64,000 bases of DNA from Desmodesmus armatus (Eukaryota; Chlorophyta; Chlorophyceae; Sphaeropleales; Scenedesmaceae). The notes under the pieces were generated by a model, which worked only from the letters and a program-made list of their open reading frames with translations, searched no databases and was not told the origin of the DNA. The stretch spans positions 434,001-498,000 of the forward strand of contig VIIQ02000625.1 in assembly GCA_007449985.2 (NCBI GenBank), read 5' to 3'. Made by a program: the position numbers and the translations under genes. Below are positions 5,985 to 31,600 of this stretch, in pieces (position 1 is the first letter of the stretch; the number at the start of each line of letters is the position of its first letter).

Positions 5985-7558
5985 CTATCCTGCTTGCTGT
6001 GGCTCATCTGCTGTATGTGCCAGGAGCCGTGCCGCTGCCATGCCCTGCCGTCCTGTCAGCTGCTGCAGTATGCTGACCACCTGCTGCTGCGTCTCCTGTA
6101 GGCTGCAGCCCGTGTCTATTACGTAATCTGCCCGTCTCCTCTTCTCTTCATCAGGGACCTGCAGAGCAGCAGGGCAGGCGTACAATCATGTATGCATGAG
6201 CATAGCAGGGTGACAACACACATGCATCCTTCGAGGTCCACAAGGCTTGTACATCAGGCACTGCCCCTAATGGTGCGGTGTGCTTGCCAGCAAAAACCAC
6301 AAACAGTCCCTGCTGAGCCACTTGGCTGACTCACCAACACTATCAGCGTTCACCAAGTTGGCCATGCAGGGGAGTGCAACTGTCCACACAGCAGTAGCTT
6401 GCTCTACTACTAACAAAGAGGGTCGCTGTTGGTGCTGGGTCTGTGATGAGTGTGGGTCCCTCTGCTAGCGTCTCCCTCTCCATTTTGTGGGAGCAACATA
6501 TAGGTGATGAAGTTATGTATGCGTGTGACTCCACTTGCCTGTCGTGCCAGTATTGCTGCCAGCTTCTCCTGAGTCATGCCTGGCCGTGCCAGTACCCGCT
6601 GCTGCTGCACCTCTGCAGGAGCACTGACCACTAGCACTAGGTCCAGCTGCTGCTCTGCCTTGGTCTCATACAGCAGCGGTATATCAAACACAACCACGGG
6701 AGTGTTGGCTGCTGCATGCTGCAAGCAGAGCACATGGCAGGATCAGCGTGTGAGAGCTTCAGCTGCGTAGAAGCTGTACATGCGGAAGGGTTCTTTTACA
6801 GCAGTTGAAAGGCTTACAGCACCCTGTACACAGCATATGGCAGAGTCGGTGAAGCTCAATCATCACACACATCACACTGGCAAGCAGACACGCACATGCA
6901 GGGGTTGTCAGACTCCTGATCGGCGAGGCTTCGCCTCACGCTCCCAAGTGGTCAGGGCCACCCAGTGAGCTGTTGTGTGTGTGGCCAGCCGGGTCCCACC
7001 CCCCTGGAATAAAGAATGACCAACACGTGCACATACCTGCCGCACAAATTGCAGCCTCTCTGCTTCCACCAAGGGATGCACGATACCTTCCAACTGCTTC
7101 ATTGCTGCTTCGTTGCCTACGACATATTTGCTGAGCTGTGGCCTGTCGATTGCCCCAGCAAGCACTGCATCAGGGAACACTGCTCCAATTGGTGCTACTG
7201 CTGCGCCACCAGCATCGTACAGCTTATGTACCACGGCGTCAGCACATAGCACTGGAACGTTCTGTGCGGTCAGGAAACCGGAGACGGTGCTTTTGCCTTG
7301 TCCTATGCCGCCTGTGAGTCCCACAAGAAGAGGCAAGGATGTTGCTGCTGCTGCAGTGCCTGCGGAGTTTGCCTGAGAGGGTTGCATAGCCGACATCAGC
7401 CGTATGTTGGGGATAAACATCGTGCTGTGGGGCCCAGGGGTCGAGAAAGCTTTGTGGGGTTTGTGGCTGGAGATGTGCCAGCTGTGCTGCATGTCACGGC
7501 ACCAGCAGGCCTGCAGTGGAGAGAGGCGCCAGCCAAAGCGAGTGAGGGGGAGGTTCAC
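5985..7558 (-). CDS. COAE: Dephospho-CoA kinase, three exons, complete
   Basis: Catalyses ATP-dependent phosphorylation of dephospho-CoA, the last step of coenzyme A synthesis. Exons on the minus strand: 7558-7037, 6718-6539, 6158-5985; all junctions are phase 0 and give 291 residues. Seen: P-loop [14 protein letters not shown], then [33 protein letters not shown] and the C-terminal [14 protein letters not shown], the diagnostic order of the family. About 75 residues precede the P-loop, rich in Ser/Ala/His/Arg with a possible alternative start at MSAMQPSQ; this could be an organelle-targeting extension (inference). Exon 2 ends CAG/GCAAGT, a GC-AG intron, and the alternative GT does not preserve the conserved join to [11 protein letters not shown]. 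The gene is divergent from the phosphatase subunit downstream, about 310 bp from start to start. Identity is very secure. Confidence 0.94.
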
Positions 7559-20285: not shown

Positions 20286-21796
20286 TCTCAGGTCAAAGAA
20301 TTATCCATCTATGAATGCAATTGTTGCTACCTCAGGACCAGTGCCTTCGTCACCTTTCAGCAATACCTGGTGCAAGTGCTTGCACAGGCCAACGGCCGCT
20401 GCTCCCAAGCCCACTGCTCTGCTAGCAGGATCAGCCTCTGACAACATGCAAACATCTTTTGCTGTCAGGGGCTATGGTAGTCTCCCACAAGCTCTTGGAC
20501 AGCACCTACACTTGCAACCAGCTGCGCCATATGGCAATGCATTGACACCCAAATGGGAAGTACTGGGCTTGAACTGTCAGAGGGGCTCTTGATTGAGCGT
20601 TTCCTGGGTGCATATGTTGCTGACTGCACGATTTGTCTGCACCTGCAGCTGCAAGATCTTGGAGAGGGCATGTTCAGACAGGCATTGATGTCCAGCCCTC
20701 CACACCCCATTTTCCCCCAAATGTTTAATAAAATATTGAATTAGCAATTCGTGATTGATAAGGTCCCTTGCGGTCTGTATTTGGTAAACCATGCCGCTCC
20801 CGCCCGATGGTATTCTGTGACAGGCTGTAAAGCTGTTGCCGTCCTGCATCAGCTCAGAGCAAGTGGTGGTGACTGCTTAGTGACACAAGTTGCCTGTATT
20901 ACAAAAGCTGGTGGGGTGCGCTCCGCCCGGCAAGCAACTTGGGTCGCGAAAGGGCTGCTGCGAACGGCAAAGCAGCAGCCTCTGGAGTTGCAGCTCCTTC
21001 TGTCGGTCGGTCGTCAGAGGGTAGGCGGGAATACATGCTCCGGCCTGAAGTTGGCTCCGCATCCCTCACAGGATGAACAGCCAGCCTCCCCGCAAAGAGT
21101 TACTTGCCAGCTCGGTGCTGGTTCAACTCTCAGGGGATTCCCAAGCGCTCCGAGCAGTCACCGACACTTGCTCCGTTGCTTTCATGAGACTGGAATGGGC
21201 GGCCTTCTCGTTGGCAGTCTCGAATCTCTCTGCTGCTGCTGGAGCTGCATTTTGCACCTCCACCAGCAGCAGGGGGAACCAACCTGAGCCCTTTGTTCCT
21301 TTCACTTTGACCACTTTGTCACTCACTACATAGCAGCAGTGTGTATGATAGTACAAGCTTTGAAACATTCCTCCTGTTGATGACAAGCTGCTGGTATCAG
21401 CATTCTGTGACTGCATAAATTGTTTGCACCAAGCCAACCCCACTCGGCAACCCTTCTCACTCCGCCCCAGTTTACGTAGATCGCTGAAACAAGGGGCTGG
21501 AAGTACCTTGAAACCATGCCAATCACACATGAAGGTGTGCACCGCGCACAATGGTTGTGCAACCCCAGAGCTTGGTGCTTTGAGCACCCACAACAGTCAC
21601 CATTTGATTGACAAGAGAGAATCAAAAAGGCAAGGGGTTGTCGTGCGCAATTAGCTGTCACTGCCGAGGACATACACTACACAGTAGTAGTGAGCAGGGC
21701 GGTCGGGAAGGGGAGAAGATGCTACAAGGTGTAGCTTCCCTAAGGAGACAGGGGCCACTCAAAATGAGCAGGGAACCTGCGTTGGGCGATGCACAG

Positions 21797-22137
21797 TGAC
21801 ACGAGCAGCAGCTACACTGACCGATTCCTGCTGAGTGAGCAGTAATCCTCACAGGAAGGTTATGCTGTGTACAAGGCTATACAACACATGCCTTAGCAGA
21901 ATCAGTGTGATAGTTGACTAATCATGTTGAGTCAACAAGGACTCTGGGTGATATCAGATCATGCCAGATACTGCTGCGTGGCAGTGCTATTATTGGTGGT
22001 TAAGTGCTTGGGAGTTGTATGCGATGAGTTTGGTGCTGCGATGCACAGGTGAAGGATCACTGGCGGGTTCAGGGTTTACCGCCTGCAGTGCCGATTCCTT
22101 TGTGCCGCTGTGGTGCTCTGTGCGTTGCACTCGGCTT
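21797..22137 (+). repeat. 5' copy of the terminal direct repeat (LTR core)
   Basis: 341 bp starting TGACACGAGCAGC and ending CACTCGGCTT; matches 29705-30045 except for one T/C difference near the end. Confidence 0.95.
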
Positions 22138-22230
22138 GTGGTTTGCTGCCTAAAGCTTGCAGCAATGATGCTTCGCAGCCAGCTGGCTGCTCTGAGGGTA
22201 GCAGATACTCACTTGTAGTCCTTTGCAAAG
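22138..22230 (+). repeat. 93-bp block present inverted in the 3' LTR region
   Basis: Exact reverse complement of 30205-30297. Its inner end is the palindrome CTTTGCAAAG, shared with the start of the RT coding frame, which points to a microhomology-mediated inversion joined to an internal deletion. Confidence 0.95.
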
Positions 22231-23211
22231 GAGAAGGTGCAGGAGATGCTGGATGCGGGCATCGTAAAAGAAATTCCAACGACCTGTCCGCATGCTTCAG
22301 CTATCACGTTGCCTATGAAGCGAGCACCCGACGGTAGCTGGACCGACAAGCGGTTCTGCATCGACCTGCGCAACGTCAACGGCAACACAGTGGTGGACAG
22401 TTACGGCCTGCCACTACCGGAAGAACTGTTTAGGCGAATTAGGGGGCACAAATTCTTGGTCAAGGCGGACTTTAGAGCGGGCTTTTGGCAGCTCAACCTG
22501 AGCGAAGAGGCGCAGCAGCACGTGGCCTTCCACGCACCCGACAGTGGCAAGCGACTGACCTACACGCGGCTGTGTTTTGGTCACGTGAACGCCACGGCAA
22601 TTTTCCAGCGGGTTATGGAGAAGGAGCTGGCAGCAGCTGGTTTGTCTCACTGTGCGGCGCCGTTCGTCGATGACGTTATCATGTGGTGCGACACCTGGGA
22701 GGACATGGTGACCAACTTCAGAACACTTCTACAGCATCTCAAGACAGTGGGCTTGCGCCTGCACCCTGCCAAGACAATCGTGGGTGCAGACTGCTTGCCT
22801 TACCTGGGTCACCTGGTATCAGCCAAGGAGTGCAAGCCGGAGCCAGCCAAGATTGCAGGCATCAAGGCACTGCAGCCACCCACCAGCCTCAAGCGCCTGC
22901 AGGCCCACCTTGGCCTGTTTAATTACTACAGGTGCTATGTGCCCAACTTTGCCATCATTGCCAGGCCGCTTTACAAGCTTATGGAGAAGGGTGCGCAGTA
23001 CATCTGGAGTGATGACTGTAACCAGGCGTATGAGGGGCTTCGAACGGCGCTGTGCAAGAAGGGTTTGGGGCTCAGGCAGCCTGTGGATGGGCGCAGTTTT
23101 CATCTGTATGTCGACTGGAGCAACACGGGCATTGCAGCTGTGCTGAATCAGGAGGCGGAGGATGGGACGGAGTACATGGTGGCCTGTGCCAGCAGGTCCC
23201 TCAAAGCCTGA
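22209..23211 (+). CDS. Reverse transcriptase and N-terminal half of RNase H (retrotransposon pol, 5' truncated)
   Basis: Ty3/gypsy reverse transcriptase. The usable ATG is at 22237, but homology starts at 22209 (FAKEKVQEMLDAGIVKE) straight after an upstream TAG, so the N-terminus (gag/protease) is lost. Counting from ATG 22237: FCIDLRNVN, first catalytic Asp 78 in KADFRAGFWQ, FGHVNATAIFQRVM, the FVDD box at residues 143-146 (Asp145, Asp146), LGHLVSAKE, LGLFNYYRCYVPNF and the RNase H start HLYVDWSNTG with catalytic Asp 293. The frame stops at TGA (23209-23211) inside RNase H, and the domain continues in the +1 frame of the next ORF. All catalytic residues of the polymerase are present. Activity of this copy is doubtful because the start and the 5' region are missing. 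Confidence 0.95.
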
Positions 23212-26200
23212 GCAGAACTATCCCGCCTGGAAAGGCGAGATGATGGCAGCAGTGTGGGGCGTCAAAATGTACAGGCCGTACTTGCACTCCAGGGAGTTCT
23301 ATCTCCACAGCGACCACCGGGCGCTGTTATGGCTGCTGACACAGAAGACACCAGTGGGGCAGCAGATGCGTTGGATTCTGGCACTTCAGGAGTACCGCTT
23401 CTCACTGGTGCACAGGGCAGGCAAGTCAAACCCAGCTGATGTGCCTAGCAGGGAAGCCAGTAGCTGTGTGGCAGACACCACTGGAGCCAGGTTGGACACG
23501 GAGCTGCATGACTGGGTGCCCACTGTGCTTCTGCCAGACTGCAAAACAACGGACCCGCTGGTCACACATGACAGTCTGGCACTGGAGCTGGGCATTGGCA
23601 GCAAATCAACAGCAGCAGCTGGAGTGGCAGCAATGGCTTATGAGGAAACACCTGGTGACTGCCCAATCCTTCACAGCCCAGCAGCAGCGCTGGCGGCAGA
23701 ACCAGCAGACAGCTACAGTCATGAACAGCTGGAGCACGAGGCGTTGTGTTGTCTACTGTGCAGCAACGAGTCTGCAGTGGACACATTCGCCCCAACCGCC
23801 GACTCATTGCTGGGGGGGGAGACAGCAGGACAACTTTTTGCTGACGATGGCTGCTGCGTGGACACACAACACCCAGCAGTAGCTTGGCGGCAGCATGACC
23901 TACAGCAGGCAGCATCGGCGTGGGTCACATTGGCAGGGCTACAACAGCCCCAACCGGACAGCTTCCAGCCAGGAGTGTACACAGGTGCATTGGACCCCTG
24001 GGGCGTAAGGGAGACACAAGGGCTGTGCACGGCTACTGTGGCAGACACGTTCTTCCCGGCAGCGCTGCAGCAGGGCATCGTGCTTTATGAGCCGTTTGGT
24101 GGCATCTGCGCAGGGCTGGAGATGGTGCTCAGGAGTGGCATCACAGTCAAACAGTACCTGTACAGCGACATCAACCCCATGGCACAGCGGGCGGCGTTAC
24201 ACAGGATCAGGGTGCTGCAAAGCATGTATCCCAAGCAGCTACCGGAGGATGCTTTGGCTGGCAGTTTCAGCATTCTTCCCATGGATGTGAGGCACATCAC
24301 CACACAGCAGCTCAGCAAGGCTGTCAGCGAGGCACCAGTCAAGCAATGGCTGGTAGTAGGAGGCTGGCCCTGTCAAGACTTCTCTGCAGCAGGCAAGTCA
24401 CAGGGGCTTCGGGGTGATCGGGCTCAACTGCTGTTTGACCTGGTCAGGGTAGTGGGAGCGTTGCAACAGCTACTCCCACACCAGCCCCCAGCCTACCTGG
24501 TGGAGAATGTGCTCTTGCAGCAGCACAGGCTGAGCAGCATCAGTCAGCATGACTTCAATAAAATCAAGGCGTGCCTAGGGTTACCTGTGGTGCTGGACGC
24601 AGCACAGTTTGGCAGCCTTGCACATCGGGCGCGCAACTTCTGGTCCAACCTGGTTGGGCCCAGTCAACTGCGAGCAGCTTTGGCATTTGTCAAGAGGCCA
24701 CCCGCACGCAGCGTACAGCTTGCCTTGGGACCTGGCAGGACCGCGCAACCTGTCAACCGACCAGACGCTGCTCCTCTCTACCCCTGCAACGCACCAGGGC
24801 AGCCTCGCGCAGCCTGGCCTACCTTGGTCAGCAGCGCACGCTCCTACGCCTTCAGGCCTGGCCAGCCTGGCAGTGTTTTGGACACAACGGTGCCTGCTGT
24901 AGTCAAGTGGGGCGAGCCAACAGCAGAGGAGAGAGAGGTAGCTCTGGGCTATCTTCCAGGCAGCACAGCAGCAGCAGGCCTCACACAAGCGCAGCGGTGT
25001 GCGTTGCTCGGTGAAAGCATGGATGCCAACACTTTGCAGGTGCTCATGGCCATCGCCAAGGCTTGGTTCCTGCGGGGCCTGCCTACCTCTACTGACTTGG
25101 CGACACGTGCATTCAGCGCACACGAAGGGGAACTGGCGCAGGAGTGGCCTGGCAGAGAGGCAACTGCAACCCCACATGGCTATCAGCAGCAGCTAGCCAT
25201 GACAGCTGGCTACCAGGAGAACACTACGGCTACGAGCCAAGGTGACATCTGGGCCGACGATAAGACCCTGGAGTACATCAGAACAGGGCAACTCCCACAA
25301 GACCTGGCAGCCAGCCAGGCAGCACGTATCAAGCGACGTGCACGCTCATACTACTTCAAGGACCAGCAGCTGATCAGGAGGATGCCAGATGGCACCGACA
25401 GGCTGGTACCTCCACCACAGGCGCGTGCTGGTCTCATACGGCAGCAACACGAGATGTGTGGGCACTTTGGCAGGCGGCGCACCTCAGCCATGCTACTCAG
25501 TAAGCACTGGTGGTATGGGTTACTGGCGGACGTTGCAACAGTGCTGTCACGCTGCGAGCACTGCAGCAGGGTGCATGCCAGCTTCACCGCCAAGCCGGAG
25601 GAGCTGCGCCCCATTCCAATCAGCAGCATGGGTTTCAGGTGGCACGTGGACACAGCTGGGCCACTACCCAAGAGTGCAAAGGGCAACAAGTATGTGCTGG
25701 TGTGTGTTGAGGCATTCAGCAAGTACCTGGTGGTGGTGCCGATGGAAAACGACAAGGCGGAGACCACTGCATACCACTTCTTGCACGGTGTATTGGCACA
25801 CTTTGCAGCACCAGGGCAGGTGGTGACAGACTCAGGGACAGAGTTTGAGGGCGAGTTTGCCAAGCTCCTGGAGGATGCGCTCATCGATCATGCCATCATC
25901 AGTGCAGACCACCCTCAGGCCAATGGTCAGGCAGAGAAGGCTGTGCACATCGTCAAGCGGGCGCTTACCAAAATGGCAGTGGCAAGGCACAGTGTCAAGC
26001 AGTGGGATGAGGACTTGGCATGGCTGGCACTGGGCTACCGCTGCTCTCCACAGGCCAGCACAGGCCACAGCCCGTACGAACTCATGTATGCACGTCCACC
26101 GGTCATTCCACCTGCAGTGAAGGAGCTTGTCAGCACACCCCTGGACATCAGTGCTGAGGCGGCTGTCAAGGACCTACTGCAGCGTAAGGAGCGGCTAAAG

Positions 26201-27505
26201 CAGCAGGTGCCCATTGCGCTGGAGAACCTGGCGATTGCACAGCACAGGGATCAGCGCCGTTACCTGCAGCTGCGTGCGCCTGACTACAAGCCACGCGTTC
26301 ACAGGTTTATGGTGGGTGACTACGTCTACACTCAGCAGCTTAACCGGGCAAGCAAGCTACAGCCCAGGGCCAAACCCCTCATTCTGCGAGTTCTGGAGGT
26401 GCGGGACTCTGGGGTACTGCACCTGCAGGGGCGCTGTGGCCGGACCATTGAGGTGCACATGTCTCACTGTGCACCCTGCCACTTGCCTGATATCGACGGC
26501 GGCATCGACCCACTGCTGGTGGACAACACAGATGATGTGGTCTGTGAGGTATGCAGCACCAGCGACAACGGGGCCGAGCTCATGCTGTGTGACGTGTGCA
26601 ACAGCGGATACCATACCTACTGCTTGCAACCACCACTCAGCAGTGTGCCTGACGGTGTGTGGCTGTGCCCGGAGTGTGTGGACGCTGGCTACACAGAACA
26701 GGATGCTGCTGGCAGGGAGCAGCAGCGGCAGCAGCTACAGGAGCGGGAGGCCAGGCCAAACATATTCCCCGGCGCGCAAATGAAGCGCAGGGACGAAGCA
26801 GCACATGCGCTGCATGGCCGACTGGTGCTGAAGGCGTTCACGGATCCAGCCACCGGGAAAGGCAGGAAGTACTGGGGCAGGATCTACTTCAAGGATGCTG
26901 AGTCACGCCCATACTACTTCCGAGTGGTGTACGAAGATGGGGACTCTCACCACGCCACCATGGCAGGCATCAAGCGCTACCTGCAGCCGGAGGATGCAGT
27001 GCTGCCACCTGGGGTCAGCATTCCTACACCAGAGTCACTGGCAGCAGCAGTGGCGTACGCACGACAGCTGGTCAGCAGGGTTGCTGGCGGTTCAGTAGCT
27101 GTTCCTTCCACAAGGGTCTCACCGGCAGATGTGCAGTTGCTGCAGCTTACAGTGCAGATGTCCCTGGTTCAAGCCCTGGTGGACCCACTAACACTCAACA
27201 CCCAGTGGCAGCAGGTTTTTGCTGGGCGACCGTTCACTGTGGGCTGCGGGCCTGTACAGCACGGCGCTACAGCCATCATCATTACACCTACAGCACCCTT
27301 TGTGCTTCATGCAGTTTTCACAGCACTGCAAATGAGGCCATTGGTGGTGCTCTGTTACGTGCCTTCACTGGCGTTTCCAGCTGACATCCACCCTCTGTTC
27401 AGTGCACTCAAGCAGCAACGGCGAGCAGCAGCATTCAGGGGCAAGAATGGCTGCTGGCTGGTGCTCAGTAGGCAAGGCATAGACATCGACAACTGGCTGC
27501 ATTGA
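23162..27505 (+). CDS. Polyprotein: RNase H end, cytosine-5 DNA methyltransferase, integrase, PHD finger, Tudor-like domain
   Basis: 1,447-codon frame, +1 relative to the RT frame; true protein probably starts by frameshift near 23209, because RNase H resumes with EQNYPAWKGE (Glu26) and LHSDH (Asp51). Residues 100-300: low-similarity linker. Residues 306-640: C5 methyltransferase with FGG motif I, catalytic PCQ (Cys404), ENV (448-450), AHRARNFW (487-494) and LGESMDANTL. Residues about 700-1060: integrase with HHCC zinc finger (His763, His768, Cys798, Cys801) and DDE triad Asp830, Asp890, Glu925. Residues 1127-1172: PHD finger with full C4HC3 ligand set. Residues about 1217-1280: Tudor-like segment (YWGRIYFKD, FRVVYEDGD). 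Residues 1315-1447: conserved-looking domain of unknown role. No premature stop interrupts 4.3 kb. In standard Ty3 elements integrase follows RNase H directly and ends in a chromodomain; here both positions are changed. Confidence 0.93.
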   Translation: MGRSTWWPVPAGPSKPEQNYPAWKGEMMAAVWGVKMYRPYLHSREFYLHSDHRALLWLLTQKTPVGQQMRWILALQEYRFSLVHRAGKSNPADVPSREASSCVADTTGARLDTELHDWVPTVLLPDCKTTDPLVTHDSLALELGIGSKSTAAAGVAAMAYEETPGDCPILHSPAAALAAEPADSYSHEQLEHEALCCLLCSNESAVDTFAPTADSLLGGETAGQLFADDGCCVDTQHPAVAWRQHDLQQAASAWVTLAGLQQPQPDSFQPGVYTGALDPWGVRETQGLCTATVADTFFPAALQQGIVLYEPFGGICAGLEMVLRSGITVKQYLYSDINPMAQRAALHRIRVLQSMYPKQLPEDALAGSFSILPMDVRHITTQQLSKAVSEAPVKQWLVVGGWPCQDFSAAGKSQGLRGDRAQLLFDLVRVVGALQQLLPHQPPAYLVENVLLQQHRLSSISQHDFNKIKACLGLPVVLDAAQFGSLAHRARNFWSNLVGPSQLRAALAFVKRPPARSVQLALGPGRTAQPVNRPDAAPLYPCNAPGQPRAAWPTLVSSARSYAFRPGQPGSVLDTTVPAVVKWGEPTAEEREVALGYLPGSTAAAGLTQAQRCALLGESMDANTLQVLMAIAKAWFLRGLPTSTDLATRAFSAHEGELAQEWPGREATATPHGYQQQLAMTAGYQENTTATSQGDIWADDKTLEYIRTGQLPQDLAASQAARIKRRARSYYFKDQQLIRRMPDGTDRLVPPPQARAGLIRQQHEMCGHFGRRRTSAMLLSKHWWYGLLADVATVLSRCEHCSRVHASFTAKPEELRPIPISSMGFRWHVDTAGPLPKSAKGNKYVLVCVEAFSKYLVVVPMENDKAETTAYHFLHGVLAHFAAPGQVVTDSGTEFEGEFAKLLEDALIDHAIISADHPQANGQAEKAVHIVKRALTKMAVARHSVKQWDEDLAWLALGYRCSPQASTGHSPYELMYARPPVIPPAVKELVSTPLDISAEAAVKDLLQRKERLKQQVPIALENLAIAQHRDQRRYLQLRAPDYKPRVHRFMVGDYVYTQQLNRASKLQPRAKPLILRVLEVRDSGVLHLQGRCGRTIEVHMSHCAPCHLPDIDGGIDPLLVDNTDDVVCEVCSTSDNGAELMLCDVCNSGYHTYCLQPPLSSVPDGVWLCPECVDAGYTEQDAAGREQQRQQLQEREARPNIFPGAQMKRRDEAAHALHGRLVLKAFTDPATGKGRKYWGRIYFKDAESRPYYFRVVYEDGDSHHATMAGIKRYLQPEDAVLPPGVSIPTPESLAAAVAYARQLVSRVAGGSVAVPSTRVSPADVQLLQLTVQMSLVQALVDPLTLNTQWQQVFAGRPFTVGCGPVQHGATAIIITPTAPFVLHAVFTALQMRPLVVLCYVPSLAFPADIHPLFSALKQQRRAAAFRGKNGCWLVLSRQGIDIDNWLH
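24077..25080 (+). other. Cytosine-5 DNA methyltransferase domain inside the retrotransposon polyprotein
   Basis: About 335 residues (306-640). Seen: motif I FGGICAGLE for AdoMet binding, YSDINPMAQRA (motif II-like acidic loop), MDVRHI (motif III-like), VVGGWPCQDFSAAG with catalytic Cys404 (motif IV), LVENVLLQ with Glu448 (motif VI), AHRARNFWSNL (motif VIII), and a motif IX-X region ending LLGESMDANTLQVL. The AHRAR-FW block and the short spacing resemble the DNMT3 class, whereas PCQ resembles DNMT1/bacterial enzymes (DNMT3 has PCN). All catalytic motifs are intact and in order, so this is a complete enzyme domain, not debris. Its substrate sequence cannot be read from the motifs. Confidence 0.93.
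26540..27000 (+). other. PHD finger followed by a Tudor-like domain at the end of integrase
   Basis: PHD: Cys1128, Cys1131, Cys1143, Cys1146, His1151, Cys1154, Cys1169, Cys1172, with the typical W two residues before the last CxxC. PHD fingers of this form read histone H3 tails. The next module (residues 1217-1280) has the G-K-x-WGRI, YF-RV-YEDGD, and I-RYL spacing of Tudor-like (PTM/DIR17-type) domains that in plants often follow PHD fingers. The pair occupies the position of the targeting chromodomain in chromoviruses, so a role in choosing integration sites is inferred. Confidence 0.8.
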
Positions 27506-27680: not shown

Positions 27681-28916
27681 GTGCAGGGCGTGTTCTCATT
27701 TATGCCCGACACAGCACCTGGTGCCAGCAGTGTAATAGAGGAGCAGCTGGACTACGGGGAGGACTCCTGGGAGGAGTTGCAGGAGCAGCCAGTCAGTGAG
27801 GAAGTGGCACTGCTAGGATCTGGAGAGGAGGAGTTGCCTCAGCAGCCAGACAGTGAGGGTGCAGAGCAGCCGGACTTTGGGGGCGAGGGCTTGCCTGAGG
27901 AGCCCATGCAGCAGGACATAGCAGCTCACATGGACCTGCCTGCAGCAGTAGCGGAGGACCCAGCCGGCCAACTGGTCACGAGGGTACGCGCAATCTACCA
28001 TGGGCTTCGGCGGGACAGGGATGAGCTGAGGGGTATTGACAGGAGCTTGTGGCAGCTTACACTAGAGCAGCAGCGATGGGTGGAGCGCGAAGCAGCAATG
28101 GACGTGCTTGGCATCACCCGTGTTGCATGTCACCTTGGCGGCTATGCCAACGGGATGTCAGAGGACCTCACAGTTGCGGCAAGGCGGGCAAAGGAGGCAG
28201 ACCAGCACATGCTGCAGAATGCAGATACAGACTTGGAGGCAGAAGCAGCACGGGCAGCTGCAGCAAGGGAGGCTGCAGCAAGGGAGGCTGCAGCAAGGGA
28301 GGCTGCAGCAGCTGAAGCACTTGCAAAGGAGGCAGCAGCGAAGGCAAGGGCTGCAAAAGGGAACCGCGCAGTAGAGCCGGCAGCAAACCAGGAGGCACCT
28401 GCAGCAGTAGGCTTTGATTGGAGTCGCGTGAAACTACCCTTAGAGTTTGTGCCTCCGCAGCGCGGAAGCAGCAGCAGCGGCAAGGGTAATGATGGGGAGC
28501 ATACGCAGGAGCGCAGCGGGAGCCGCGGCCGCAGCCCCAATGCCGACAACAGGGAGCGCAAGCCCAAACGCAGCAGGAGCCGCAGCAAGGGCCGCGGCAA
28601 GGACGACAACCAGGACCGTGGTGGTCGCAGCAGCAGCAAGTACGACATGGACGGGCCTCCCAAACCCGCAGACGTACCTGAGTACGAGCTCCCTCCTTTG
28701 GGCTTTACCCGCAACAACTGCAGGGTGGGCAAGGACGGTTATGGATTAGCAGGAGTTATGGATTACCAGGGCACGTGGTTCCCAGTGGCAGCACACGACC
28801 CAGCGCACAACCCGGAGAAGAACCCAAAACTTAACGACACATGCCCAATCTGCTTCCTGCGAACAGCATACAAGCAGGATCGCCTGGCATACCGTTCCAA
28901 CACCCGGCGCAGGTAA
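27681..28916 (+). CDS. SR-rich ORF of the retrotransposon, downstream of pol
   Basis: 411 codons, single frame, ATG 27681 (176 bp after the pol stop). Order of regions: acidic N-terminus (residues 14-100), helical region with RVRAIYHGLRRDRDELRG, an Ala/Glu/Arg coiled segment of repeated AAREA units (about 190-225), a Ser/Arg/Lys/Gly-rich tract (about 265-330, RSRSRSKGRGK), and a C-terminal domain with YELPPLGFTRNNC and a CPIC pair. It is not recognisable as env. It could be a displaced nucleocapsid/Gag-like protein (basic tract plus CxxC) or an accessory RNA-binding protein. A 12-base AGGGAGGCTGCAGCA-type triplication marks the coiled part. Inside the element and therefore most likely element-encoded. 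Confidence 0.7.
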   Translation: MQGVFSFMPDTAPGASSVIEEQLDYGEDSWEELQEQPVSEEVALLGSGEEELPQQPDSEGAEQPDFGGEGLPEEPMQQDIAAHMDLPAAVAEDPAGQLVTRVRAIYHGLRRDRDELRGIDRSLWQLTLEQQRWVEREAAMDVLGITRVACHLGGYANGMSEDLTVAARRAKEADQHMLQNADTDLEAEAARAAAAREAAAREAAAREAAAAEALAKEAAAKARAAKGNRAVEPAANQEAPAAVGFDWSRVKLPLEFVPPQRGSSSSGKGNDGEHTQERSGSRGRSPNADNRERKPKRSRSRSKGRGKDDNQDRGGRSSSKYDMDGPPKPADVPEYELPPLGFTRNNCRVGKDGYGLAGVMDYQGTWFPVAAHDPAHNPEKNPKLNDTCPICFLRTAYKQDRLAYRSNTRRR

Positions 28917-29652: not shown

Positions 29653-29702
29653 AGTGTACACCCCTAGCAGCAATCTGAGCAGGTCAGTGTTCTACTGCGT
29701 CA
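29653..29702 (+). repeat. 50-bp direct repeat, first copy (start of full 3' LTR)
   Basis: AGTGTACACCCCTAGCAGCA...TACTGCGTCA; identical to 30298-30347. It brackets a 595-bp block (29703-30297) made of the LTR core, a 159-bp spacer and the 93-bp inverted block. Begins TG after the purine tract and ends CA. Confidence 0.93.
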
Positions 29703-29704
29703 GC

Positions 29705-30045
29705 TGACACGAGCAGCAGCTACACTGACCGATTCCTGCTGAGTGAGCAGTAATCCTCACAGGAAGGTTATGCTGTGTACAAGGCTATACAACACATGCC
29801 TTAGCAGAATCAGTGTGATAGTTGACTAATCATGTTGAGTCAACAAGGACTCTGGGTGATATCAGATCATGCCAGATACTGCTGCGTGGCAGTGCTATTA
29901 TTGGTGGTTAAGTGCTTGGGAGTTGTATGCGATGAGTTTGGTGCTGCGATGCACAGGTGAAGGATCACTGGCGGGTTCAGGGTTTACCGCCTGCAGTGCC
30001 GATTCCTTTGTGCCGCTGTGGTGCTCTGTGCGTCGCACTCGGCTT
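29705..30045 (+). repeat. 3' copy of the terminal direct repeat (LTR core)
   Basis: 341 bp, one base different from 21797-22137. Confidence 0.95.
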
Positions 30046-30204
30046 TGACAGTGCTTGGTGTAAACTTCTGGCAGTGTTTCCCGAGTACTCGCTCATTTGA
30101 ATCCCCAATTCAGAGCGCACAGGTGCAGCAACCAGCCCCAGCAGCGACCTGTGGTCGAACCGGGTGCCTGAACATCACTCATACATTCATACAGCGCATC
30201 AACA

Positions 30205-30297
30205 CTTTGCAAAGGACTACAAGTGAGTATCTGCTACCCTCAGAGCAGCCAGCTGGCTGCGAAGCATCATTGCTGCAAGCTTTAGGCAGCAAACCAC
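30205..30297 (-). repeat. 93-bp block, inverted relative to the 5' end
   Basis: Exact reverse complement of 22138-22230, starting at the palindrome CTTTGCAAAG. Confidence 0.95.
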
Positions 30298-30347
30298 AGT
30301 GTACACCCCTAGCAGCAATCTGAGCAGGTCAGTGTTCTACTGCGTCA
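30298..30347 (+). repeat. 50-bp direct repeat, second copy (end of 3' LTR region)
   Basis: Identical to 29653-29702; followed by CAGGGTATG and a GT microsatellite in the presumed host flank. Confidence 0.93.
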
Positions 30348-31600
30348 CAGGGTATGTGTGTGTGTGTAGCAGAACAAGAGAGAGAGTAAGAACAAGACTG
30401 GACAATTGCCACTGACAACTGCTGATATGTGCAAGCAAACAGCAATCCACTTGCTGTGTCCAATTGCTCCACACAACTGGGACCACTTGCTTGTGACCAC
30501 GTTATCTGTGACCGACTGGGACCAGATGAAATCGCAAGGCGCTGAGTGATGCTGACGCCTGCGCAACTGCTTTAATTGCAGCTGATAATGCTACTGCCAC
30601 AAGCAAACTGACACTGCGCACGAGATGTGCGGATGGGACCAGATTGAAGATGGGCTCGGTAGTCTGAACTGCTGCGGCCTCAGGGCAAGCTGTCTGCTGG
30701 GCAAATGCGTTTGTGTGAGTGTGTAAACTGTGTAAGAAGCACAGTTGAGCTGTTAGAACACAGCTGGGAGAAACCGACCTGACCTGACAGACTCTGACCT
30801 GAGTGGGCCCGCGATAATGCGTAGCTCCAGTAGAAGAAGACACTGACCAGACACTGACCAAGAAGACACTGACCAAAGATTGCACTTGAGAGAACACGGG
30901 ATTACAACGACGCACAGACAGACTCTACCACACAGCGACTGCTGCTCTGAGGCTCCAGCTGCAGAACAACTGGACTTGACAACCGCTGAGTGCGATAGCA
31001 AGCTGCTGACAGCATCCAAACACCGGCCAACGCGTTACCGCGTTGGCAAACCTTTTGAAGCAAGAACAGCACGCTGAACCCAGTGTCACTCGCGGTTTTG
31101 TTTGACTGAAGCAGCACAACTCGACAGGCAACCATGCTGCAAGCTGCTACAACACTGAATCAATGCATGAAGCAACCAACAACACTTATTCCTGCTGCTT
31201 CCTCACCACAGTTGGACACTGGCTTCACAACTGCTGCTACTGCACAGCTGAACTGCTGAGCTGACAGTACTGCTATTTCGGCAACACACATGTATACGGC
31301 ATGACAGGGTGACTCATGGTTCATGGTTCATGGCATGAACCGCATCAAAGGTCAAACAGACAAAAGGCGCCTCCATTGGCGTCCTGAACACAGGTCACAC
31401 GGGGCCCGTGTAACACAATGAAATGCCACACTGTTGCTGCCACAACAAAACTGCTGCTGTCGCAAAGCCTGCCAGCTTAACCCTGTGGCTGCTGCTGCAG
31501 ATGATCCACTCAGCTGGGTGCTGCTAGCTGGGGGGTGCTCACCTCAGGCTGACTTTTGCTGGGCGTGGTGCCGCATGATAGTGACACACCAGAGCACCCA
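30348..31600. other. Unassigned AC-rich stretch after the retrotransposon
   Basis: Contains short GACACTGACCA repeats (30838-30880), a GT microsatellite (30354-30368) and many stop codons in every frame. No gene recognised. It may be the leader of another retroelement or plain host flank. Confidence 0.4.

Follow-up and report, generated by a model that had tools for sequence, protein, structure and literature searches.

We analysed a window of 64,000 nucleotides from the alga Desmodesmus armatus (contig VIIQ02000625.1, positions 434,001 to 498,000 of the forward strand; C595:434001-498000 in the searched assembly of 115.8 Mb and 831 contigs), which harbours a copy of a retrotransposon carrying its own cytosine-5 DNA methyltransferase (DNMT). 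The enzyme is part of a polyprotein (Pol) frame, which is preceded by a separate frame containing the reverse transcriptase (RT). The coding features of this part of the element are the following:

22237 to 23211, forward strand: RT and first part of RNase H in a frame of their own, 324 codons (Pfam, PDB)
23162 to 27505, forward strand: Pol frame, 1447 codons, with the RNase H end, DNMT, integrase, PHD finger, Tudor-like match and a C-terminal alpha/beta region
23201 to 23395, forward strand: C-terminal part of RNase H (Pfam)
24068 to 25066, forward strand: predicted DNMT3-type cytosine-5 methyltransferase, residues 303-635, with Cys404 and Glu448 (Pfam, conservation, structural model, Foldseek)
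25409 to 25576, forward strand: H2C2 zinc-binding domain of the integrase (Pfam)
25637 to 25906, forward strand: integrase core with D830 and D890, E925 being located just past the Pfam match (Pfam, alignment)
26543 to 26677, forward strand: PHD finger (Pfam, 7.1e-12; sequence matches to PHD chains in the PDB)
26816 to 26950, forward strand: match to a PTM/DIR17-like Tudor domain below the Pfam cut-off, in a region that is also found in relatives

Within the Pol frame, Pfam assigns RNase H to residues 14-78, DNA_methylase to residues 397-493 (above cut-off), Integrase_H2C2 to residues 750-805, rve to residues 826-915 and PHD to residues 1128-1172; the weak PTM/DIR17 Tudor match covers residues 1219-1263, and no ADD or PWWP domain is matched in the frame. 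The order of RT, RNase H and integrase is that of Ty3/Gypsy elements. A sequence search with the RT identified the RT of Ty3 as top PDB chain (2.7e-30), and the integrase is of the Ty3/PFV-like DDE type. The alpha/beta region at the C-terminus (residues 1290-1447, about 27029 to 27505) is predicted with fair confidence, and a profile of this end matches 20 rows including the window. A first-pass annotation of this DNA had described a single frame of 1,447 codons holding the RNase H end, the DNMT and a DDE integrase, which Pfam bears out, and had listed a set of C5-methyltransferase motifs that we could all locate, with FGG at residue 312, Cys404 in the sequence GWPCQDFS, ENV at 448, AHRARNFW at 487 and LLGES at 615. 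Its start of the feature at position 22209 has to be revised, since the region thus defined takes in the RT, which resides in a different frame than the DNMT, with the RNase H divided between both.

The type of the methyltransferase was characterized by its motifs and by structure comparison. Motifs I-X follow each other in linear order, with the catalytic Cys and Glu both present, and are not permuted as in DRM. In a Foldseek search with the model of the domain (pLDDT 93.4), all 50 among the matches listed are DNMT3 chains of 21-24% identity. A VIA comparison with the multi-domain model, which hardly probes parts beyond residue 351, ranks DNMT3A (27.7) ahead of the CpG methylase 4dkj (24.9) and HhaI (24.1). 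The domain is thus predicted to adopt a DNMT3-type fold. As modelled, it resembles DNMT3A and DNMT3B in fold and motif order but differs from both in sequence, in the lack of an ADD or PWWP match and in being embedded in a polyprotein. The predicted fold fits the earlier proposal of an origin separate from DNMT1 and CMT enzymes, whereas the supposed mixture of AHRAR-FW and PCQ features is simply the DNMT3 pattern. Since the tree contained no eukaryotic host DNMT, only the structure rankings speak against a relation to DNMT1 or CMT. Bacterial-type methylases were rejected as nearest relation because both Foldseek and the PDB search place DNMT3 first; in the tree, bacterial and viral DNMT-like sequences form a long separate branch (five rows long enough of 17 loci matched, three of them identical). 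Two places in the genome with exon-like matches to PF00145 (C11 and C146) do not match the profile of the element DNMT.

The methyltransferase is present in many copies of the family. A search of the assembly with the DNMT domain, in which 96 of 96 candidates were scored, returned 95 matches with fragments included, and at least 36 matches are complete over 352 residues at 99-100% identity. The motifs are conserved in these copies, in line with the earlier description of a retrotransposon with an intact C5 methyltransferase between RNase H and integrase. Corresponding searches detected the Pol protein (P0001) in at least 34 rows (32 of 385 first-look candidates scored), 16 of which contain an open Pol frame of 1937 amino acids that includes the RT. 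To find relatives elsewhere, we searched protein sequences with residues 290-650, scoring only the 7990 candidates that share most words with the query, and obtained 123 proteins, of which 120 were listed. Since the query was the DNMT itself, carriers of a DNMT are found by construction and it is their linkage and order that are informative. In 119 of the 120 listed relatives, two of which bear transcript-style accession names, the DNMT is contained in the same protein as an RT and/or an integrase, and the order RT, DNMT, integrase equals that of the window in all 75 listed relatives in which all three were found. The catalytic Cys and Glu and Arg491 of motif VIII are invariant in 108 of 108 sequences and the DDE residues of the integrase are kept in 108 of 109. 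With a dN/dS of 0.10-0.13 between families, the DNMT is under strong purifying selection.

The organization of the element was defined in eight copies that were fetched as stretches (C654, C39, C589, C13, C162, C27, C77 and C718). The first four of these are complete, with a length of about 13.9 kb and the arrangement A1 - ORF1 - Pol - ORF3 - B1 - GC - A2 - B2, where A and B denote repeats, A1 spans 588-594 nucleotides (nt), B1 50 nt, and open reading frames (ORF) 1 and 3 encompass 1580 and 411 codons. Their Pol frame codes for 1937 amino acids, except for C39 (1680 amino acids), where also the A2/B2 joint is shortened. The element ends in TGAC...GTCA and is flanked by 4-bp target duplications (CCAA, GGCG, TCCT and CTGT) in all four copies whose two outer ends were read and are intact. 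The GC spacer between B1 and A2 is found in the six fetched copies having this junction and in the window. C162, C27 and C77 each run off their contig on one side. In C718 (L045, L046), which is 5'-deleted, A1 is joined straight to the RT, B1 is followed by flank, and G-runs are found at both outer ends. C77 (L043, L044) lacks B2. An A-body-B form may be able to insert.

A search with ORF1 scored 30 of 333 candidates and returned at least 31 rows, of which 23 are complete; one with the A repeat scored 40 of 80 candidates and returned at least 41 rows. ORF1 shows no Pfam match above cut-off and no convincing match in either Pfam or the PDB; judged by eye, its DSGA motif and its Gag-like and Cys-rich stretches suggest a Gag-protease. 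It overlaps with Pol in a different frame (+1; L031, 6552-6697), and Pol may therefore need frameshifting or a start of its own. ORF3 matches nothing in Pfam and nothing in the relatives; seven of the eight fetched copies contain it, 99.8-99.9% identical, and gaps occur in C162 and L026. Over 4302 bases of Pol, the eight copies compared differ at 0-2 positions, and A1 matches A2 without any difference over 588 nt in C654 and in C13 and over 548 nt in C39, and to 99.5% in C589. As judged by this lack of divergence, the family is the product of a very recent burst. Three further loci (L061, L062 and L063) show no substitutions compared to L064 in aligned parts but only gaps of one or a few bases, which are probably consensus errors, and stop counts at these loci may therefore mislead.

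The same ends recur in a second family (C78), which contains a B-A-B arrangement at its 3' end with a B of 194 nt, an A1 located about 12 kb upstream of A2, again a GC spacer, and a 4-bp duplication (TTGT) in the one copy available. Both families thus exhibit split direct repeats of the type A-coding-B-A-B known from DIRS elements, instead of identical long terminal repeats (LTRs) at both outer ends; the repeats read A1 ... B1-A2-B2. The tyrosine recombinase and lack of target duplication that define DIRS elements are not observed: Pfam gives no match to PF00589 in the frames of Pol, ORF1 and ORF3. Target duplications of Ty3/Gypsy elements measure 4-6 bp, and a DDE integrase combined with duplications of that size is found in both families, the window copy having 3 bp. 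Split repeats and 4-bp duplications in both families establish that a Ty3/PFV-like DDE integrase serves elements with DIRS-arranged ends, a combination that is useful for studying the origin of split repeats.

In the window, the Pol region is framed by the following features:

21794 to 21796, no strand: possible 3-bp target duplication CAG, left (junction sequence; 4 bp in complete copies)
21797 to 22137, forward strand: partial A1 repeat, the first 341 nt of A, with one mismatch to A2 (repeat comparison)
22137 to 22230, reverse strand: last 94 nt of A, inverted and meeting the RT at the palindrome CTTTGCAAAG, the scar of a 5' deletion (repeat comparison)
27681 to 28916, forward strand: ORF3, 411 codons, an acidic part followed by an Arg/Ser-rich one (open frame without Pfam match)
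29653 to 29702, forward strand: B1 repeat, 50 nt (repeat comparison)
29703 to 29704, forward strand: GC spacer between B1 and A2 (junction sequence)
29705 to 30298, forward strand: A2 repeat, 594 nt, its boundary base common to B2 (repeat comparison)
30298 to 30347, forward strand: B2 repeat, ending in GTCA (repeat comparison)
30348 to 30350, no strand: possible 3-bp target duplication CAG, right (junction sequence)

This copy is young but defective, since its A1 and A2 are nearly identical (the one difference in 341 positions is a C/T exchange at a CpG), yet its 5' part is deleted and partly inverted and the RNase H frame is split by a short indel relative to other copies. Gag, protease and the very start of the RT are missing. 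The inverted 94-nt repeat was rejected as a functional part, as none of the eight other copies searched contains it.

Further families with a DNMT reside in the same genome, with DNMTs that are 56-61% (L047/L058, L048/L050, L051-L055 and C180/C589/C211/C147/C102) or 46-50% (C431, C786, C131 and C190) identical to that of the window. Outside this genome, L008, on a contig assigned to the metagenome-assembled genome (MAG) of a desert-crust cyanobacterium, shares with the window a homologous DNMT (40% identical) and the RT, RNase H, integrase and PHD series, but there the DNMT is part of the Gag frame, after the protease and before the RT: Gag, protease and DNMT share one frame, and the remaining domains follow in the next. 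The top PDB chains of its RT are 7q5b (6.6e-100) and 4ol8 (9e-77). L005 covers the integrase side only. The contigs of P0090 and L004-L008 are retroelement contigs of eukaryotic kind under bacterial or archaeal MAG names and were likely misbinned. A search of viral contigs found no such element.

A similar element had been described before, so that the layout is not new in kind. In the streptophyte alga Klebsormidium nitens, KnitGypsy-Dnmt3 contains a DNMT3 inside a Gypsy Pol, DIRS-like repeats and a Ka/Ks below 0.2, and unrelated DNMT-bearing elements are known from dinoflagellates (de Mendoza et al., 2018, PMC5890265). The window family shares with KnitGypsy-Dnmt3 the DNMT3-type domain in an intronless Gypsy Pol, the DIRS-type repeats and the purifying selection on the DNMT, and thus fits the description of that group. 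It differs by its PHD and Tudor-like domains, neither of which is named in the main text of PMC5890265, by its host, which appears to be a green alga with an intron-bearing RbcS, and, compared by description, by the 4-bp duplications, the GC junction, several families and very recent copies found here. SymbioDIRS-Dnmt3 of dinoflagellates, described in the same paper, also combines a DNMT3-type domain in Pol with A-coding-B-A-B repeats but uses a tyrosine recombinase in place of a DDE integrase with 4-bp target duplications. Two other articles report retrotransposons with adenine or cytosine methylases in green algae, charophytes and others, the green-algal type being unspecified (Morozov et al., 2019, PMC6338049), and cite DNMT3 in retrotransposons for streptophytes and dinoflagellates (a survey of 2025, PMC12344493). 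In the open-licence literature, searched by title or abstract start, we found no report that a Gypsy element of a chlorophyte carries a DNMT3. Since KnitGypsy-Dnmt3 already unites a DNMT3 inside the Pol of a Gypsy element with repeats of DIRS type, the window family belongs to a new and diverse group within a known kind of element; what is new, within the literature searched, is that such a group is diverse, was active recently and combines chromatin readers with split ends. Of the earlier description, the retrotransposon with a DNMT stands, whereas the PHD finger, the Tudor-like match, the split repeats and the defects of the copy had been overlooked.

DNA methylation normally silences retrotransposons, and an element that keeps a conserved methyltransferase under strong selection is therefore a paradox. 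In the interpretation that we favour, although it stands at no better than an even chance, the window contains a recent, 5'-broken copy of an LTR-type element with a Pol of RT, RNase H, DNMT3-type domain, integrase, PHD and Tudor-like domain, whose DNMT methylates its own cDNA or the site of insertion. RNA extending from A1 to the right repeats would be packed and copied into cDNA by the RT, with the B1-GC-A2 junction, as a record of both unprocessed ends, serving as template to restore the two outer ends. The integrase would then trim the two extra nucleotides and insert the cDNA with a 4-bp stagger. The DNMT, which shares a polyprotein with RT and integrase, would set de novo methylation at CG sites, either on the new cDNA or where the element inserts, an activity and purpose that we infer. 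The new copy would thus enter the genome bearing the mark of its host, which a host maintenance enzyme would keep, and the PHD and Tudor-like domains behind the integrase might tether insertion to chosen chromatin. In chromoviruses, insertion is guided by chromodomains; the window family likewise carries a chromatin reader behind the integrase, but Ty3/Gypsy elements including chromoviruses lack the extra DNMT, do not have PHD and Tudor-like domains in place of a chromodomain, and show a simple LTR-internal-LTR structure. The element would profit by leaving a quiet copy that resembles self and does less harm to the host. Because one family of this diverse group has spread so recently, with at least 36 near-identical DNMT copies, the question of why the enzyme is retained is testable in a living system.

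Several observations weigh against this interpretation. In the same genome, Gypsy-type RT relatives of about 28-34% identity (123 of 211 RT candidates scored) show no DNMT match at their places, and many elements therefore do without one. Similarly, L004, L006 and L007 contain RT, RNase H, integrase, PHD and Tudor domains with no DNMT between RNase H and integrase, and the enzyme is thus not indispensable. The end structure varies among the eight fetched copies, with C77 lacking B2 and C718 lacking A2-B2, and the target duplication of the window copy measures only 3 bp. The CpG ratio of the Pol frame (0.46) equals that of the flanks (0.45 and 0.47), with an excess of TpG/CpA across the window; this pattern suggests long-term CG methylation, although CAG-rich sequence adds to the pattern, and the element being as CpG-poor as its surroundings fits methylation but shows no special treatment. 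Finally, the domain of KnitGypsy-Dnmt3 did not methylate DNA in yeast, although human DNMT3B did not either and the authors regarded the result as inconclusive (PMC5890265).

In a tree of 34 rows with midpoint root, the rows without DNMT fall among DNMT carriers, and a loss in the line of L004, L006 and L007 is therefore likely. In a wider and more tentative scenario, held below even chances, a DNMT3 would have been captured once, by an early green-algal Gypsy lineage with DIRS-like split ends, and inherited together with the integrase across considerable divergence, moved within the polyprotein in L008 and lost in L004, L006 and L007, with the Klebsormidium element not being independent. Its polyprotein would combine writer and reader, methylating new cDNA and selecting the chromatin for insertion via PHD and Tudor-like domains, and hosts would carry many lineages of it.

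Among the alternatives, an action of the DNMT on host DNA or chromatin, where it would compete with or overload host methylation or prepare target sites for the PHD/Tudor integrase, is unlikely, although it fares best. The PHD and Tudor-like matches on the same polyprotein, the many near-identical copies and the CpG depletion across the window would suit such a role, for which competition or overload was speculated in Symbiodinium by de Mendoza et al. (PMC5890265). Action in trans finds no support here, however, and the DNMT-bearing L008 is little CpG-depleted (0.82). We consider it improbable that, along the lines of the second idea of the first-pass annotation, the enzyme shields the cDNA from a defence by which the host attacks unmethylated foreign DNA, be it restriction-like or based on a deaminase. 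Methylation and protection of cDNA were discussed by de Mendoza et al. (PMC5890265) and a related antiviral role was proposed by Morozov et al. (PMC6338049), and the position in Pol beside RT and integrase and the strong purifying selection would agree with it; yet such a nuclease is without evidence in this host and Gypsy-type relatives without DNMT match persist in the same genome. Quite improbable, too, is that the domain is kept to support the structure of the pre-integration complex or to bind DNA there, with methylation being incidental: the absence of the DNMT in L004, L006 and L007 and its different location in L008 could be reconciled with such a role, but binding alone would not require the invariance of the catalytic Cys and Glu and of Arg491, which disfavours it. 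An assembly join between a host DNMT and a retrotransposon, or a decaying passenger, which the 5' deletion and frameshift of the window copy might evoke, deserves practically no credence and was rejected, since the same fusion at 36 near-identical places and in 119 of 120 listed proteins speaks against both chance and a join, and the dN/dS of about 0.1 opposes decay. As the DNMT is also present in other copies of the family, neither of the two findings that the first-pass annotation had named as refuting its reading holds.

Three exon-like matches to the RuBisCO small subunit were found on C612; an RbcS encoded in the nucleus and interrupted by introns characterizes the green lineage. Among the relatives, the polyproteins of P0084, P0087 and P0099 contain a G-patch domain (PF01585), which also occurs in some retroviral proteases. 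In the window itself, a match to dephospho-CoA kinase (CoaE) at 6908-7558 on the reverse strand probably corresponds to a host gene.

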